Shown piece after piece: positions 5,718 to 30,817 of a stretch of 39,243 bases of DNA. The position numbers and the translations under genes were made by a program. The stretch spans positions 23,649 to 62,891 of the forward strand of contig MEKU01000048.1 in NCBI GenBank assembly GCA_001767195.1, written 5' to 3'. Below the pieces are notes generated by a model. It was not told the origin of the DNA, searched no databases, and worked only from the letters and a program-made list of their open reading frames with translations. Position 1 is the first letter of the stretch; each line of letters starts with the position of its first letter. The stretch comes from Acidobacteria bacterium RIFCSPLOWO2_02_FULL_67_21 (GTDB lineage: Bacteria > Acidobacteriota > Vicinamibacteria > Vicinamibacterales > UBA2999).

Positions 5718-5739
5718 CTCCCGCGGATCGCCGCAGGAG
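5718..5739 (-). promoter_or_regulatory. Expression-platform hairpin of the fluoride riboswitch
   Basis: On the minus strand CTCCTGCGG, loop CGAT and CCGCGGGAG pair over nine bases (one G-U). The first arm reuses the CTCC that the aptamer needs for its pseudoknot, so hairpin and ligand-bound aptamer exclude each other. No uridine tract follows, so whether it stops transcription or acts in another way is undecided. Fluoride would be expected to disfavour the hairpin and raise crcB expression. Confidence 0.6.
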
Positions 5740-5788
5740 TCATTGGCCGTCCAGTCGGGGCCGGCGGTTCAGGTGGACTCCACCACCA
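5733..5788 (-). ncRNA. Fluoride riboswitch aptamer (crcB motif) upstream of crcB
   Basis: Read on the minus strand, the leader has the crcB-motif parts in order. The first stem is GGTGG/CCACC around TGGAGT. Next is AACC and a GCCG/CGGC stem, then CAATGACTCCTGC, which matches the known 3' consensus (the AATGAC and CTCCT portions). GGAGTC of the first loop pairs perfectly with GACTCC at the 3' end, giving the expected pseudoknot. It lies 71 bases before the crcB start. Motif order and pairings are seen in the sequence; fluoride sensing is established for this RNA class; function here is inference. Confidence 0.85.
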
Positions 5789-5799
5789 ACGAGACGTCC

Positions 5800-21446: not shown

Positions 21447-21766
21447 GGAATGATGATGCGGGACTTCGGCTCGGAAGACGGGGGCGTGCTGCGCGTGGCA
21501 TCGACAAACCGCAGCCGCAGCTCGTAGAGCACCGAATCGAGCATCTGCCGTTCCTCAGCGGTGAGGTTCCCCTTCGTCTTCTCGGCGATCAGCATGAGGA
21601 TGTCGATCATCTGTGCTGCCGCCGGCAGGTTCATCTCCCCCTTCTCACCGCTGACGGGGTCGGGGATGTCTCCGAAGTGCACCGCCGCTGTGTGCGCAAG
21701 CGACAGTACGAACGCTGCGAAGCTGATGCCGGACTGCTCGTCCGCGCCGGTTGTCTCGTCGGCCAT
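21443..21766 (-). CDS. DUF1844 protein
   Basis: 107 residues. The DUF1844 core is visible: ISFAAFVLSLAHTAAVHFGDIPDP followed by NLPAAAQMIDILMLIAEKTKGNLTAEERQMLDSVLYELRLRF, mostly helical. The family is common in Acidobacteriota and Deltaproteobacteria and has no known function. It is the first gene of the minus-strand run to galT and is divergent from mazG with only 41 bases between. That gap holds the palindrome ATGGTACCAT (21782-21791), which may belong to overlapping promoters. Confidence 0.9.
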   Translation of the reverse strand: MADETTGADEQSGISFAAFVLSLAHTAAVHFGDIPDPVSGEKGEMNLPAAAQMIDILMLIAEKTKGNLTAEERQMLDSVLYELRLRFVDATRSTPPSSEPKSRIIIP

Positions 21767-21807
21767 GTCTACTCAACCCGGATGGTACCATACCAGCCGG
21801 AGACGTC

Positions 21808-22635
21808 ATGGCTGAGACTGCGGAACGTAACAGCGCGGGCGCCCGGTTCGACCGCCTGGTGGAGATCATGCGCGCCCTGCGCGCGCCCGGCGGGTGCCCC
21901 TGGGACCGCGAGCAGACGCATGCCTCGCTCCGCCCGTTCGTGCTCGAGGAGACCTACGAGGTGCTGGAGGCGATTGAGGGCGGCTCTGCCGACAGCCTGC
22001 GCGAGGAGATCGGCGACTACCTGTACGAAGCCGTCTTCCTCGCGCAGATCAGCGAAGAGGCGGGCGACTTCTCGATTGGCGAGGCCGTCGACTCGATCTG
22101 CGACAAGCTCGTGCGCCGGCATCCCCACGTGTTTGCCCGGCAGCAGGGCGACGCCGACATCACGACCGCGCAGGTGCGGGAGCGGTGGGAGACGATGAAG
22201 GCGCGCGAGCGCGGAACGGATGCCGCCCGGCCGAAGACGACGCTGAGCGGGGTGCCGAAGACGCTGCCGTCGCTCCTCCGCGCGTACGAGATCAGCGCCA
22301 GGGCCGCCGCGGTCGGCTTCGACTGGGCCCGCGCCGCTGATGTGTTGAACAAGATCGAGGAGGAGGTTGCCGAGGTGCGCCGCGAGGTCGAGTCGGGCGC
22401 GACCGGCCACCTCTCGCGCGCCGAAGAGGAGATGGGCGACCTGCTCTTTGCCATCGCCAACCTCTCGCGCAAGCTCGGGATCGAACCTGAGTCGGCGCTC
22501 CGGCGCGCCAACGAGAAGTTCACGCGGCGATTCGACGCTGTTGAGGCGGCCTTTGCCGACCGCGGCCGATCGGTCCACGATGCCACGCTCCAGGAGATGG
22601 AGGAGGAGTGGCAGCGCGTGAAGGAGGCGTCCTAA
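21808..22635 (+). CDS. mazG: Nucleoside triphosphate pyrophosphohydrolase MazG
   Basis: 275 residues from ATG 21808 with GGAGA upstream. It has the tandem MazG domains of the full-length enzyme. The first has GGCPWDREQTHASLRPFVLEE, YEVLEAIEGG and REEIGDYLYEAVFLAQI (the EExxE and ExxD Mg2+ motifs); the second has KIEEEVAEVRREV and RAEEEMGDLLFAIANLSR. It hydrolyses NTPs and aberrant dNTPs to monophosphates. The TAA stop (22633-22635) shares two bases with the inverted-repeat element that follows. It converges on comEC across that element. Confidence 0.95.
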   Translation: MAETAERNSAGARFDRLVEIMRALRAPGGCPWDREQTHASLRPFVLEETYEVLEAIEGGSADSLREEIGDYLYEAVFLAQISEEAGDFSIGEAVDSICDKLVRRHPHVFARQQGDADITTAQVRERWETMKARERGTDAARPKTTLSGVPKTLPSLLRAYEISARAAAVGFDWARAADVLNKIEEEVAEVRREVESGATGHLSRAEEEMGDLLFAIANLSRKLGIEPESALRRANEKFTRRFDAVEAAFADRGRSVHDATLQEMEEEWQRVKEAS

Positions 22636-23140
22636 CCACGAAGATCACGAAGACAGCGAAGGGCACGAAAGCCTTCATTCAGACGACGATTCTCCTGAGT
22701 CCGTGCTTCAAGACCGCGACGCGGAAGTTGATCAACAGGCCGCCGCGCAATCCGGTCGTGCGCAGATATGAAATCAACTGTGCGCGGTGCACTTCGTCGA
22801 GCTTGACGACGGATTTCAGCTCCACGATGATGGCATTGCCAACGATGAGATCCACGCGCTGTCCGGCGATCTCGATGTCGCGGTACTTGACGCGCACCTG
22901 CCGCTCCGATTCGTAGGACGGACCGAGCGCCTCGAGCTCGATCTGCATGGCTTTCCGGTAAATAGACTCCAGGAAACCTGGCCCCAGTGCCCGATGGACA
23001 CGGATGGCACATCCGATGGTGGAGGACATCACGTGCTCGGCGTGTGCGTCGAGAGGCGATGGGATGCGCATACGATGTGCGGGCGATAAGCGTGATTCGT
23101 GACCTTCGTGATCTTCGTGATCTTCGTGTCCTTCGTGGTT
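22634..23140. mobile_element. Putative element: GxxExxY gene framed by inverted 9-bp repeat arrays
   Basis: Left arm 22634-22672 is AAC plus four 9-bp units (CACGAAGAT, CACGAAGAC, AGCGAAGGG, CACGAAAGC). The right arm, inverted, 23140 to 23093, is AAC plus five units (CACGAAGGA, CACGAAGAT twice, CACGAAGGT, CACGAATCA). Both ends start AACCACGAAG. The unit fits exactly between the stop codons of mazG and comEC and holds only the GxxExxY gene. The same ends occur without a gene at 27464-27552. No clear target-site duplication is seen. Mobility is inference. Confidence 0.6.
22679..23071 (-). CDS. GxxExxY protein (PD-(D/E)XK-like)
   Basis: 130 residues from ATG 23071. The name-giving motif is GFLESIY (32-38), preceded by IGCAIRVHRALGPG. 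A nuclease-like D-x(n)-ExK core follows: Asp74 in RVDLIVG and Glu84/Lys86 in IIVELKSV, then QLISYLR and GLLINFRV. This is the usual GxxExxY layout, and these proteins belong to the PD-(D/E)XK superfamily; biochemical function is unknown. The frame is open upstream to an ATG at 23143, which would add a His/Glu-rich stretch (NHEGHEDHEDHEGHE) translated from the right repeat arm. I prefer the later start but cannot exclude the longer form. Both flanks are inverted 9-bp repeat arrays. Confidence 0.88.
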   Translation of the reverse strand: MRIPSPLDAHAEHVMSSTIGCAIRVHRALGPGFLESIYRKAMQIELEALGPSYESERQVRVKYRDIEIAGQRVDLIVGNAIIVELKSVVKLDEVHRAQLISYLRTTGLRGGLLINFRVAVLKHGLRRIVV

Positions 23141-25581
23141 CATCGTCGTGTCCCCATGTACGTTCGAATCTCGACCTCTCGGCCATCGGTGGCGACGGCG
23201 ATCTGACCGTCGCGGTCGGTGCGGTAAACCCGGGCGCCGACGGCGGCCAGGCGGTCGAGCACCTCCGGCGACGGGTGGCCGAAAGAATTGCCGCGGCCGC
23301 TGCTGATGAGGGCGATCTGCGGGCGCCAGTGGTGCAGCAGCTCGTGCGACGTGGACGTGCGGCTGCCGTGATGGGCGACTTTGAGGATCCGCGTGGGGGC
23401 GGGCGTGAGCTGCGGCAGGATGGCGCGCTCCACAGCGGCGCTCACATCTCCCAGCAGGAGCACCGCCACACGCCCGTACAGCAGCTCGAGCACAACCGAA
23501 TCATCGTTGCGCACGCGCCGGCGCTCCCACTCCTCGGGCGGCGGATGAAGGACCCGGATGCGCGCGCCGGCGAGATTGCGCTCGTCCCCGGCCCGCAGCG
23601 GACCGACTCGGGTGCCACGCGCACGGGCGCGCGCCAGCACCGCCTGGAGCGGCGCGTGATCGTGAACGGCAATGCCTTCCCAGACGACCGACGGATGGAA
23701 ATCGTCGATCGCCGCCGGCGCCCCGCCGATGTGATCGGGGTCGCCGTGCGTGAGCAGGAGCCGGTCGAGACGCCGCAGCCCGCCGGCCCAGAGCGCCGGC
23801 GCGAGCACCCGGGTGCCGAGCTCCACATTCCCACCTCCGAACGGCATCCCTCCCGCATCGACGAGCAGCGTCGACCGGTCCGGCAACTGGACCAGCACCG
23901 CTTCTCCCTGCCCGACATCGAGCATCGTCAGCCGCAGCCCGGACGATAGCGGTGCCGTCGAGACCGGGATCGGCCGGCCGGTCACGATCGCGCCTGCTGA
24001 GGCTACGAGCACGAGCAGCCCGGCCACCCGCGCCGCCGTTCGCGGCAGGAGCACGAGCGCCAGCCCCGTGTAATACAGCGCGACGACCCCGAGGGGCGGC
24101 GGAGGCACACGCGCGGCCAGCCAGGGCGCCGCGTCAACCAGCCCCGCGCTCCCGACCAGCGCGCCCGCCGCCTGGCCGGCAAGCCATCCGGCCGGCGCAG
24201 CGAGCGGTCCGAAGGCGTCGAAGATCGCCACCGCCATGCCGCCGATCTGCACGATGCCCATCAGCGGAACCGCGGCCAGGTTCAGGACGAGCCCCGCCGA
24301 CGTCACACGGGAGAACGTCGTGGCACTCACGGGAAGGAGCACGGCCTCCGCCGCGGCGGATGCTGCCAGCGAGGCGATCAACCACCTGGCGAGGCGGCTC
24401 CCCGCCGGCGCCCGACCCACCCGGCGTGCCGCTTCGAGAAGTGCCCCGGTCGCACCGAACGTCAGCAGGAAACCGGCGTCGCGCACATCGAGCGGCCGCG
24501 CGCACAGGATGAGGGTGCCGGCAAGCCCGATCGCATGCCAGGGGCCCGTGCGATGGTCCAGCAGCCGCGCGCTGAAATAGACAATGCCCATCAGCGTCGC
24601 GCGCCAGACGGAGGCGGCCGCGGTGACCACCGTCGCGTACGCGGCAAGCACGCAGATAGCACAGGCGGCCGCCCGCCTCCCTGTCATACCGAGAAGATGG
24701 AGGCATGCCAGCGTGACGGCCGCCAGGAGGCCGATGTTGCCGCCCGAGATCGCAATCACGTGGTACGTGCCGGCCGCCTGAAGGCGAAGCCGCACCTCGT
24801 CGGGCAGGCCCGTCCGGTCGCCAATCAGCACGGCCGTGACGATGGCGGCCGACACCGGGCCATGCGGCGCCACCCATCGGTCCATGCTGCGCCGCACGTG
24901 CCGGCGCACGACGGCTGCCGCCTCCGCGATCGGCCCGGCCCTGGACTCGACGTCAACCAGGAGTCCGCTCTTCACCGAGCCAAACAGGGTGATGCCATCG
25001 AGCGCGAGTGCCTGCTCGAAGTCGGGAACGCCTTCGTTCAGGTACCGCGCCGGTCGCCTGAACGTGGCAAACGCGTGGATCGTCCGCCCGGCGCGCCATT
25101 CCTCCGCCGCGCGGCGGGACGCTCCGCCGGCGACCAGCAGCCCCACTGTGCCTGCGGTGGCCTGCCACCGGCCTCTCAACCGGATCGCCACGACGTCTGC
25201 ACTGAGCCTGACGCCGTCGGAATCGACGGCCGCATCCTCCAGGAGAAGGGCACGGACGCCGATCGGATCGTGGCGAGGCGCCGGCGCCACGGCGCCGATC
25301 GCGAATCCACCGAGCTCGTGGTCGAGCGCGGCCCGGAGCGGCGTGCGAAGCGCCGTGTCACGCGCGTCCACGGCGACCGCTGCGGAGCCCGCGAAGAATG
25401 AGGCCGCAACGAGCGCCGCGGTCAGACGCCCCCGCCTCGCCCACCACGCGACCCATCCGCCGGCCAGCAGCGCCGCGGCCGCCAGCGCGGGTGGAATCAC
25501 CCACGTGGAGATCAGGCCGAGCAGCGAACCCGCGATCGTTGCCAGCGCGGGCAACAGCCCGACGACGCTCACGACGGGCAC
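23140..25581 (-). CDS. comEC: ComEC/Rec2-family DNA uptake channel
   Basis: 813 residues from GTG 25581. The N-terminal part has two membrane helices and a DUF4131-like domain. The middle is the multi-helix competence domain with SAAIVTAVLIGDRTGLP and YHVIAISGGNIGLLAAV, the hallmark ISGxN region. The C-terminal third is a metallo-beta-lactamase domain with TMLDVGQGEAVLVQLPD, LLTHGDPDHIGG and KVAHHGSRTS. The protein carries single-stranded DNA across the inner membrane during natural transformation. No other competence gene is in the window. The stop overlaps by one base the end of the inverted-repeat element shared with mazG. Confidence 0.94.
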   Translation of the reverse strand: MPVVSVVGLLPALATIAGSLLGLISTWVIPPALAAAALLAGGWVAWWARRGRLTAALVAASFFAGSAAVAVDARDTALRTPLRAALDHELGGFAIGAVAPAPRHDPIGVRALLLEDAAVDSDGVRLSADVVAIRLRGRWQATAGTVGLLVAGGASRRAAEEWRAGRTIHAFATFRRPARYLNEGVPDFEQALALDGITLFGSVKSGLLVDVESRAGPIAEAAAVVRRHVRRSMDRWVAPHGPVSAAIVTAVLIGDRTGLPDEVRLRLQAAGTYHVIAISGGNIGLLAAVTLACLHLLGMTGRRAAACAICVLAAYATVVTAAASVWRATLMGIVYFSARLLDHRTGPWHAIGLAGTLILCARPLDVRDAGFLLTFGATGALLEAARRVGRAPAGSRLARWLIASLAASAAAEAVLLPVSATTFSRVTSAGLVLNLAAVPLMGIVQIGGMAVAIFDAFGPLAAPAGWLAGQAAGALVGSAGLVDAAPWLAARVPPPPLGVVALYYTGLALVLLPRTAARVAGLLVLVASAGAIVTGRPIPVSTAPLSSGLRLTMLDVGQGEAVLVQLPDRSTLLVDAGGMPFGGGNVELGTRVLAPALWAGGLRRLDRLLLTHGDPDHIGGAPAAIDDFHPSVVWEGIAVHDHAPLQAVLARARARGTRVGPLRAGDERNLAGARIRVLHPPPEEWERRRVRNDDSVVLELLYGRVAVLLLGDVSAAVERAILPQLTPAPTRILKVAHHGSRTSTSHELLHHWRPQIALISSGRGNSFGHPSPEVLDRLAAVGARVYRTDRDGQIAVATDGREVEIRTYMGTRR

Positions 25582-25876
25582 GCTGCAAGTTGGCGCGCTT
25601 GGCTGCGGCGCGCAGACGCCAGCGACTTACGGAAGCGTCATTGCAGAAACGGCCTCACCACGCCTCGATCGCGGTTGCAGTTTCTGCCGGCAGATCGTGA
25701 CGGCGCTGGTGCGTGACTGTCCGGTACCGACACGTAGACGTCCAGAGACGAACACGCTTTCATACCGCGTCGGTTTGAGACGTGTCGACGCCGCTTCCGC
25801 GCAGATATTTTCATCGTGCGGCGATCGCGCTGCGCTACACTGCGGCGCAACCCGTCTCCCAAATAGTGTACGAACG
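25582..25876. other. Divergent intergenic region between comEC and the DHp/NtrC pair
   Basis: About 295 bases with no gene that I can support. TACACT at 25836-25841 is a possible -10 box 36 bases before ATG 25877. No convincing -35 box or sigma-54 promoter is seen. Confidence 0.4.
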
Positions 25877-26083
25877 ATGACAGAACCGAGCGCTTCGAAC
25901 CGCGTCACGCACGATCTCGTACACGAATTCAAGAACCACCTCGCCGTGATCGTCGGCTTCTGCGATCTGCTGCTTCGCGAGCTGCCCGACACCGATCCGC
26001 GCCGCGAAGACGTTCTCCAGATGCAGAAAGCAGGGCGCGACGCGCTTGCGCTGCTCCCCCGCCTGACCACGCGCATGCCATGA
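25877..26083 (+). CDS. Stand-alone histidine-kinase phosphoacceptor (DHp) domain protein
   Basis: 68 residues from ATG 25877. The sequence VTHDLVHEFKNHLAVIVGFCDLLL is an H-box helix of HisKA type with His16 as the likely phosphoacceptor, followed by a loop and a second helix (REDVLQMQKAGRDALALLPRL). That completes a DHp helical hairpin. No sensor and no ATP-binding domain follow: the stop at 26081-26083 is followed at once by the NtrC-type gene. It may be a phosphotransfer partner, a dimerisation antagonist of a full kinase, or half of a split kinase. Adjacency makes the neighbouring regulator the first candidate partner. The fold is a confident reading; the role is inference. Confidence 0.8.
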   Translation: MTEPSASNRVTHDLVHEFKNHLAVIVGFCDLLLRELPDTDPRREDVLQMQKAGRDALALLPRLTTRMP

Positions 26084-26089
26084 GTGTGG

Positions 26090-27463
26090 ATGGCTGATCG
26101 GCGCCCGGTCCTGCTCGTCGTCGACGATGAGCCCGCCATCCTCGGCATCGTGCGGCGGTTTGCCGAAAGCGAAGACTTCGACGTGGCCACCCATGCAGGA
26201 GGCCGCGATCTGGTCGCCGAGCTCCCGGCGCTCAAGCCAGACGTGGCGCTCGTCGATCGGAACATGCCTGAGGTCGGCGGCCTCGACATCCTGCGCACCA
26301 TCCGCGAGATCGATCCCGCCTGCCAGGTGATTCTGATGACCGGGGAGGCCACCGTCGACTCCGCGGTCGAAGCCGTCAAGCTGGGCGCGCTCGACTACCT
26401 CAGCAAGCCGCTCGATTTCGATCGCCTGCGCGAGCTTCTGAGTACGGTCCGGCACGGAATCGAGCGGCGCCGGAGGCTGCTCGCGGCCGACACGGAGCTG
26501 GCGAGCCGGTTCGAGTTCTACGGAATGATCGGGCGCAGCCCCGCGATGCAGGAGCTGTTCGATCTCATCCGGCGGCTGGCGCCGCATGCGCGCACCGCCC
26601 TTCTCACCGGCGAGACGGGCACGGGCAAGGAGCTGGTCGCCCGCGCGATGCACAGGCTCGGGCCTCGCCGCGACCGGCGCCTGGTGGTCTTCAACTGCTC
26701 CGCGATCGTCGACACGCTGTTTGAAAGCGAGCTCTTCGGCCACACGCGCGGCGCCTTCACCGGCGCTGTGGACTCGAAGGCCGGGCTCTTCGAAACGGCA
26801 GACCGCGGCACGCTCTTCCTCGACGAAGTGGGCGAGCTGCCGCTCGCGGTCCAGGCCAAGCTGCTCCGCGCGATCGAGTACGGCGAGGTGCAGCGGGTCG
26901 GATCGAGCGAGGCACGCCGCGTCGACGTCCGCACGATCGCGGCGACGAACCGGCGGCTGAGCGACGAAGTCTCCGCGGGGCGGTTCCGGCAGGACCTGTA
27001 CTACCGCCTCAACGTCGTCGACATCGGCCTCCGGCCGCTGCGCGAGCGCCGGGAGGACATCCCGTATCTCACCGCGGCGTTCGTCAAGGAATTCGGCGAG
27101 CGGTTCGGCAAGTCGCTGACCGGCGTGAGCCCCGGCGCCGAGCGGCTGCTGCACAACGCGCCCTGGCCAGGCAACATCCGCGAGCTGCGCAACATGATCG
27201 AGCGCGCGTGCATGCTGAGCGAGGGGCGCATGCTCAGCGAGCGTGAAGTGCTGCATGCGCTGGGTGGGGCCACCCAGCGCGGGCCGACCCTGCCGCAGCC
27301 GGCGGCGCAGGCCGACAGCCTGGACGCGCAGCCCCAGCTGGATGGGCGGACGGTCGAGCGCGTGCTGCAGCAGGTCGGCGGCAACCGCTCGGCCGCGGCG
27401 CGCCGGCTCGGCATCAGCCGCCGCGCGCTGTATCGGCGCCTCGACGCGTTCGGCCTGCGATGA
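26090..27463 (+). CDS. NtrC-family sigma-54-dependent response regulator
   Basis: 457 residues from ATG 26090; a GTG at 26084, directly after the upstream stop, is an alternative. The receiver domain has the acidic pair VVDDEP and phospho-acceptor Asp56 (VALVDRNMP) with the later Lys in DYLSKPLD. The AAA+ domain has Walker A GETGTGKE (174-181), GAFTGA (221-226), which contacts sigma-54, and LFLDEVGELP. The C-terminus has a Fis-type helix-turn-helix (GGNRSAAARRLGISRRALYRRL). Phosphorylation would drive hexamer formation and open sigma-54 promoters. The only histidine-kinase-like neighbour is the stand-alone DHp protein. Target genes are not evident here. Confidence 0.95.
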   Translation: MADRRPVLLVVDDEPAILGIVRRFAESEDFDVATHAGGRDLVAELPALKPDVALVDRNMPEVGGLDILRTIREIDPACQVILMTGEATVDSAVEAVKLGALDYLSKPLDFDRLRELLSTVRHGIERRRRLLAADTELASRFEFYGMIGRSPAMQELFDLIRRLAPHARTALLTGETGTGKELVARAMHRLGPRRDRRLVVFNCSAIVDTLFESELFGHTRGAFTGAVDSKAGLFETADRGTLFLDEVGELPLAVQAKLLRAIEYGEVQRVGSSEARRVDVRTIAATNRRLSDEVSAGRFRQDLYYRLNVVDIGLRPLRERREDIPYLTAAFVKEFGERFGKSLTGVSPGAERLLHNAPWPGNIRELRNMIERACMLSEGRMLSEREVLHALGGATQRGPTLPQPAAQADSLDAQPQLDGRTVERVLQQVGGNRSAAARRLGISRRALYRRLDAFGLR

Positions 27464-27552
27464 AACCACGAAGGGCACGAAGAACGCGAAGAACACGAAT
27501 TCCTTCGATCCGGAGCGTTCGTGACCTTCGTGAGCTTCGTGTCTTCGTGGTT
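27464..27552. repeat. Gene-less inverted array of 9-bp repeats (MITE-like)
   Basis: Left arm: AAC, CACGAAGGG, CACGAAGAA, CGCGAAGAA, CACGAATTC. Right arm, inverted: AAC, CACGAAGA, CACGAAGCT, CACGAAGGT, CACGAACGC. A 12-base spacer separates them. Ends are AACCACGAAG as at 22634-23140. It lies directly after the stop of the NtrC-type gene and before carB, between convergent genes, where it may also act as a terminator hairpin. Confidence 0.85.
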
Positions 27553-27559
27553 GACGTAA

Positions 27560-30817
<3,258 letters not shown>

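Follow-up and report, generated by a model that had tools for sequence, protein, structure and literature searches.

The GxxExxY Gene Lies between Inverted Heptad Arrays

In the window (the whole 39,243-nucleotide stretch of DNA analysed here), a GxxExxY gene (PF13366) is enclosed by inverted arrays of CACGAAGNN, made of 9-bp units, in the gap that separates the mazG and comEC stop codons. The left arm (22634–22670, + strand) consists of AAC followed by four 9-bp units, CACGAAG, CACGAAG, AGCGAAG, and CACGAAA, of which two are exact and two degenerate. The right arm (23095–23140, − strand) is an inverted array that, once reversed, reads AAC followed by four exact CACGAAG units and one CACGAAT. 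The preliminary description of this DNA had placed the gene between four units on the left and five inverted units on the right, and both the array parse and the complementarity of the arms (81% for one 36-nt pair and 88% for one 33-nt pair) agree with it. Its claim that the unit sits exactly between the two stop codons was also borne out, with an overlap of 1–2 nt on each side; the first bases of the left arm overlap the mazG stop codon (22633–22635), and the last base of the right arm is shared with the comEC stop codon (23140–23142). The window contains 15 copies of CACGAAG, a count reached by none of 100 dinucleotide shuffles.

Upstream, mazG (21751–22635, + strand) is the convergent neighbour of the unit, while comEC (23140–25581, − strand) borders it on the other side. 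The GxxExxY ORF (22679–23143, − strand) has 154 codons and matches PF13366 (E = 2.3e-36) and TIGR04256; the stop codon of comEC overlaps the ATG of this long ORF (ATGA). Its first 17–18 codons (MNHEGHEDHEDHEGHES) are arm sequence translated in frame, and comparison with orthologues puts the probable real start at MRIPSP, window position 23071. The PF13366 gene is the sole gene inside the unit, and no transposase is found there. In the window ORFs at 22679–23143 and 25835–27496, in-frame heptad arrays give rise to the recurrent peptides HEGHEDHEG and FFVPFVV, strings that could pass for conserved protein termini in annotations. A fluoride riboswitch (Rfam RF01734) is located at window positions 5727–5796 (− strand).

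The GxxExxY Protein Is a Predicted Nuclease

An AlphaFold2 model of the GxxExxY protein (pLDDT 95, pTM 0.88) gave Cas4 SSO0001, RecE, and lambda exonuclease as its best Foldseek matches, with E values of only ~0.01. A Cas4 HMM profile matched the sequence weakly (E = 7e-4), and a defence profile library returned weak Cas4-profile matches only. Phage family profiles gave no match, and a search by sequence found no relative with a solved structure. Three residues are invariant (H26, E84, and K86) and three nearly invariant (D74, Q98, and Y102); the conserved H, D, ExK, and QxxxY correspond to the residue pattern of RecB/Cas4-like PD-(D/E)XK nucleases. The fold model and these residues predict a minimal Cas4/RecB-like PD-(D/E)XK nuclease. 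Fold and residues are the features it would share with Cas4/RecB-family nucleases, from which it differs in consisting of the ~115-aa core alone, with neither a helicase partner nor a CRISPR context in the window. GxxExxY is annotated in many bacterial phyla without a function and is mentioned only in passing in the open literature that was searched. A text search for the longer array strings returned no papers; of the thousands returned for the short repeat letters, the 40 ranked first appeared unrelated.

Inverted Arms Accompany GxxExxY Genes in Many Phyla

In order to assess the generality of the arms, we used a set of 59 related genomes that includes the own genome (G000) and many draft bins; PF13366 is present in 30 of them. 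Arms were scored as the best inverted match between 300-bp flanks, fixed flanks that miss degenerate arms, and were compared with pseudo-gene controls instead of off-diagonal pairing, since the genomes share units; about 1% of loci are expected above the threshold by chance. Inverted arms exceeded the 99th percentile of 1,500 pseudo-gene controls at 39 of the 47 GxxExxY genes of the related genomes. The same held for 57 of 76 GxxExxY loci in a collection of named genomes scanned with six query sequences, here relative to 800 same-contig controls. The 76 loci belong to Planctomycetota, Chloroflexota, Cyanobacteria, Spirochaetes, Proteobacteria, Bacteroidetes, Verrucomicrobia, Nitrospirae, and others; two cultured hosts, Sphingobium sp. 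AP50 (L207) and Calothrix elsteri (L180), have arrayed copies. The search for paired arrays around GxxExxY genes of related genomes, which the preliminary description had proposed as a check, thus found arms at most of the genes, as did the scan across phyla. The pairing of gene and repeat is well supported.

The letters of the unit vary by gene and include CACGAAG, CACAGAG, CACGGAG, CACCGAG, CGCCAAG, CGCAGAG, AACGGAG, and CGCAGAT; the step is 8 or 9 bp in most cases. PF13366 was detected in none of 50,697 phage records and in 8 of 72,556 plasmid records.

Gene-Free Hairpins Are Dispersed in the Own Genome

A gene-free hairpin of the CACGAAG family occupies a convergent gap in the window (27464–27552), between a sigma-54-type response regulator gene (ending at 27463) and a large carbamoyl-phosphate-synthase-like gene (− strand, ending at 27560). 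It folds into 7-bp stems with small internal loops between them and has a DNA fold z-score of −6.0. Genome-wide, a three-unit array pattern allowing at most two mismatches gave 105 matches, compared with 0 for the reversed control pattern, and a single PF13366 gene stands against dozens of hairpins. We parsed about 30 distinct hairpins, each formed by AAC, usually four heptads, a loop of ~10–20 nt, and the inverted array followed by GTT, resulting in the ends AAC-CACGAAG...CTTCGTG-GTT. Loops and spacers are different in every copy, and thus no recent burst is visible in this genome, a point against the explanation favoured below.

Solo hairpins lie mostly 2–12 bp from the stop codon of a gene, and 0 of 19 classified fell in a divergent gap, these position classes being approximate because gene calling relied on a simple codon-position score. 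We tested whether convergent gaps are preferred and found no such preference; the hairpins follow a stop codon closely and were never classified to a divergent gap (n = 19). A search of the hairpins against Rfam matched no family.

This location, with most hairpins ~10 bp or less from a stop codon, is what could be expected if the arrays were 3′-end RNA hairpins (terminators or mRNA stabilisers) under selection, inside which small orphan genes such as GxxExxY accumulate. The hairpins indeed fold strongly as single strands, with DNA z-scores of −4.8 to −13. Furthermore, the facing spacer dinucleotides between heptads pair in 27% of positions in the own genome versus 38% in shuffled pairs (p = 0.001), which hints at selection on shape. 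Such a role leaves unexplained the turnover of the hairpins between congeners, the genome-specific match of gene arms and dispersed repeats, and the difference in unit design between PF13366 and PF05635 genes, all described below, and we consider it an improbable origin of the arrays.

The reduced pairing of facing spacers in the own genome looks as if internal loops were kept; it was not seen in the hairpins of the relative G024, a small sample. Also in the own genome, two opposed CACGAAG arms 3 kb apart (L045 1402–4494, equal to G000:C32:8701–11793) surround a gene whose product has a MUG113/T5orf172 (GIY-YIG-type) domain. Nested long palindromes, for example, GAAAATGAGTC...GACTCATTTTC, occur inside some of the hairpins as well as in the 3′ flank of gene-bearing elements (L268, L269, L225, L228, L109).

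Arm Units Match the Repeats Dispersed in the Same Genome

Dispersal was counted genome-wide for three units, CACGAAG, AACGGAG, and the 8-bp CACNGAG family. CACGAAG is abundant in 10/10 genomes with CACGAAG arms versus 8/49 others (p = 7e-7), AACGGAG in 3/3 genomes with AACGGAG arms versus 1/56 others (p = 1e-4), and CACNGAG in 8/10 versus 6/49 (p = 5e-5) when decayed genes with both arms are counted; these Fisher p-values are optimistic because the relatives are phylogenetically non-independent. AACGGAG pairs number 59 in G058, 17 in G015, 4 in G051, and 3 in G013, with almost none in other genomes, and the genomes with an AACGGAG-armed GxxExxY gene are exactly G058, G015, and G051. The case of G051, with AACGGAG arms and no dispersed copies, counts against the explanation favoured below. 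In addition, four relatives (G012, G014, G026, and G031) have an abundant unit family with no detected PF13366 gene; G026 and G012 hold relics, and G014 and G031 are unexplained or incomplete.

The more similar two proteins are, the more similar their arms tend to be (Mantel rho 0.39, p = 0.0005). The seven GxxExxY genes of G024 carry mostly different arms. In G015, ~60 bp, including non-repeat spacer, are common to the gene arm and six gene-free hairpins, as expected for a parent and its gene-free derivatives. A comparable arrangement surrounds another gene family of the relatives, PF05635 (four-helix-bundle, 23S-IVP), in which 27 of 30 genes (L279–L308) have inverted short tandem arrays. These arms mostly have a 7-bp step, e.g., GGCAGCN, TAGCCGG, or CGGGAGT, and the GxxExxY motif was never found in the 27 arms. 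The period is 8–9 in 34/39 GxxExxY arms versus 7 in 23/27 PF05635 arms.

If a different enzyme (such as a RAYT/HUH transposase) or an unknown factor spread the hairpins, GxxExxY would be a passenger of the arms, either hitchhiking or regulatory. Y1_Tnp genes are indeed present in 42/59 relatives, and RAYT-type palindromes occur in the same gaps, as in G007. However, a heptad pair within 1.5 kb was found at 0/30 Y1_Tnp loci, and G015, G009, G041, and G051 have GxxExxY with arrays and no Y1_Tnp; on these two grounds, RAYT was rejected as the driver. The arms also fit the protein family and the unit type too specifically for a passenger. Taken in its general form, the action of some other enzyme appears unlikely.

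Hairpins Turn Over between Congeners

All three CACGAAG hairpins of G024 that were tested have empty orthologous sites in its congener G029, where the flanking genes are joined by a few to ~50 bp compared with ~105–160 bp in G024. Another congener, G001, is also without the two G024 hairpins on contig C19. G024 possesses a CACGAAG-armed GxxExxY gene and 61 array matches, versus 2 matches in G001 and 4 in G029. Insertion in G024 is the simplest polarity that the comparison of these sites suggests, though not a proven one. No target-site duplication was evident at the G024 sites, around which the congeners are only ~70–85% identical.

At an intergenic site with a CACGAAG hairpin in G024, the congeners carry other short arrays (ATCTCAG type and CACCAAAT type; L351 150–400 and L354), and the flanks there are on different contigs.

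The Gene Is a Stable Resident, with Relics at Its Home Loci

The mazG–comEC gap holds a GxxExxY gene in 14 genomes, other families of the order included, and in every case on the comEC strand. In the protein tree, the genes from this gap group together, with 6 label changes versus 11.5 in shuffles. Where the gene is missing from the gap, G026 has a hairpin with the same ends, G022, G025, and others have single-arm relics, and G011, G019, G038, G050, and others have a clean, empty gap. Examination of this gap in relatives, likewise proposed in the preliminary description, thus disclosed occupied, gene-free, relic, and empty states. With arms surrounding most genes and gap states that vary, the data run opposite to both outcomes that it had named as counting against a mobile unit. 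In G007, the gap (L073) holds a RAYT-type GGGTCAGACCC palindrome where relatives carry GxxExxY.

A second home locus lies 3′ of an apparent N6-methylase-like gene (named from sequence) and is occupied in G002, G009, G011, G022, and G039. At this position, the own genome (G000:C94, just after 124763) retains both CACAGAG arms and ~18 codons of a lost GxxExxY gene. It also contains 91 orphan CACNGAG array matches, which fit the decayed CACAGAG-armed gene at this second home.

The precise position of the gene in the loop of a palindrome, and the gene-free hairpin of G026 in the same mazG–comEC gap, could be read as homing, in which the gene-free hairpin is the intact target and the nuclease cuts it so that a copy of its own gene enters the loop that separates the arrays. 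The own genome argues otherwise, since dozens of gene-free hairpins built from the same unit stand intact there beside one gene copy, meaning that the hairpins are neither cut nor invaded. The gene-free home states, moreover, look like deletions, as gene remnants persist between the arms in G000 and G023. We rejected homing because intact hairpins are abundant beside the gene, and regard it as very improbable.

The GxxExxY gene is a stable resident, found in the same place and orientation as a single copy per unit family. The earlier proposal of a cassette that moves or is copied stands only in part. Gene-free hairpins disperse and turn over between congeners; movement of the gene-carrying unit itself is not supported, as it is single-copy, lies in one and the same gap, in one orientation, in relatives from several families, and carries genes that cluster in the tree.

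A Proposed Model: A Resident Gene with Hairpins Spread in Trans

The explanation that we favour, with a probability of roughly 0.6, combines a resident gene, a trans-acting nuclease, and dispersed gene-free hairpins in a REPIN-RAYT-like system with a non-homologous enzyme. Within a dispersed palindromic-repeat family, the unit in the window would be the member that is resident and bears the gene. The GxxExxY nuclease would recognise the heptad arrays and act in trans on gene-free hairpins made of the two inverted arrays, driving or licensing their spread. Insertion or copying of the hairpins would take place mostly right behind stop codons; their dispersal and polymorphism are observed, and the part played by the protein is inferred, as are recognition, cleavage, and mobilisation. 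Because PD-(D/E)XK nucleases lack an intrinsic strand-transfer activity, the model has to assume a host step, which counts against it. The gene itself would keep one home locus, passed on mainly vertically, and would decay by internal deletion, leaving its arms and an orphan hairpin population behind.

A small nuclease-like gene with cognate scattered hairpins suggests an unrecognised repeat-spreading system. The cognate repeat family gives GxxExxY a testable candidate substrate, and the link between the two could account for many scattered inverted heptad repeats, a large class, and would indicate repeated evolution of REP-like systems with unrelated enzymes. Should the nuclease drive the spread, it would represent a transposase-free route to genome-wide hairpin insertion.

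Comparison with Known Systems

Like a MITE with an autonomous parent, the gene-free elements retain the arms of the gene-bearing one and undergo turnover among relatives, and presence or absence at orthologous sites (the three G024 sites empty in G029) is shared with classical MITEs and IS elements. Unlike either, the system has no transposase, and the gene-bearing copy is not multiplying; no target-site duplication was evident in the comparison of congeners ~70–85% identical around the sites. A homing endonuclease gene interrupts its own target, and intact targets are not expected to survive alongside it while it is active; the GxxExxY gene coexists with dozens of intact hairpins.

The intervening sequences of 23S rRNA contain an S23/four-helix-bundle ORF and have been described as selfish (PMC4990558). 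They resemble the GxxExxY elements as a small ORF inside terminal inverted repeats that form a hairpin. In contrast, they sit in 23S rRNA and are cut from the RNA by RNase III, while the GxxExxY elements are intergenic and built of tandem heptads. The parallel design around PF05635 genes suggests a wider class. We tentatively envisage, as a possibility rather short of an even chance, a general, hitherto undescribed class of bacterial elements. In this class, each small non-transposase protein (a GxxExxY Cas4-like nuclease for 8–9-bp units or an S23/four-helix-bundle protein for 7-bp units) would spread its own family of inverted-heptad hairpins in trans, by a mechanism different from those of DDE, HUH, serine, or tyrosine recombinases.

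The closest counterpart is REPIN-RAYT (REPtron), which comprises REP palindromes and a REP-associated tyrosine transposase (PMC2817692, PMC3116915, PMC8266576). REPIN-RAYT is defined by a gene flanked by two inverted copies of a dispersed palindrome (PMC2817692), and the GxxExxY gene is flanked in the same manner. Both have a single-copy gene per repeat family, extragenic gene-free hairpins, coevolution of repeat and protein, and largely vertical inheritance with losses. The differences reside in the enzyme, the arm, and the distribution. GxxExxY matches only PF13366 and has no HUH Y1 transposase domain (PF01797); its arm is a tandem array of 8–9-bp heptads and not one GTAG-tagged palindrome; and the system was seen here across many phyla. 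The GTAG-type tetranucleotide head is a REPIN-RAYT feature (PMC8266576), and no conserved GTAG was found at the hairpin base in the aligned own-genome copies. By this analogy, the best reading is that the GxxExxY system is an analogue, not a member, of REPIN-RAYT, with a putative PD-(D/E)XK nuclease in place of the HUH transposase.
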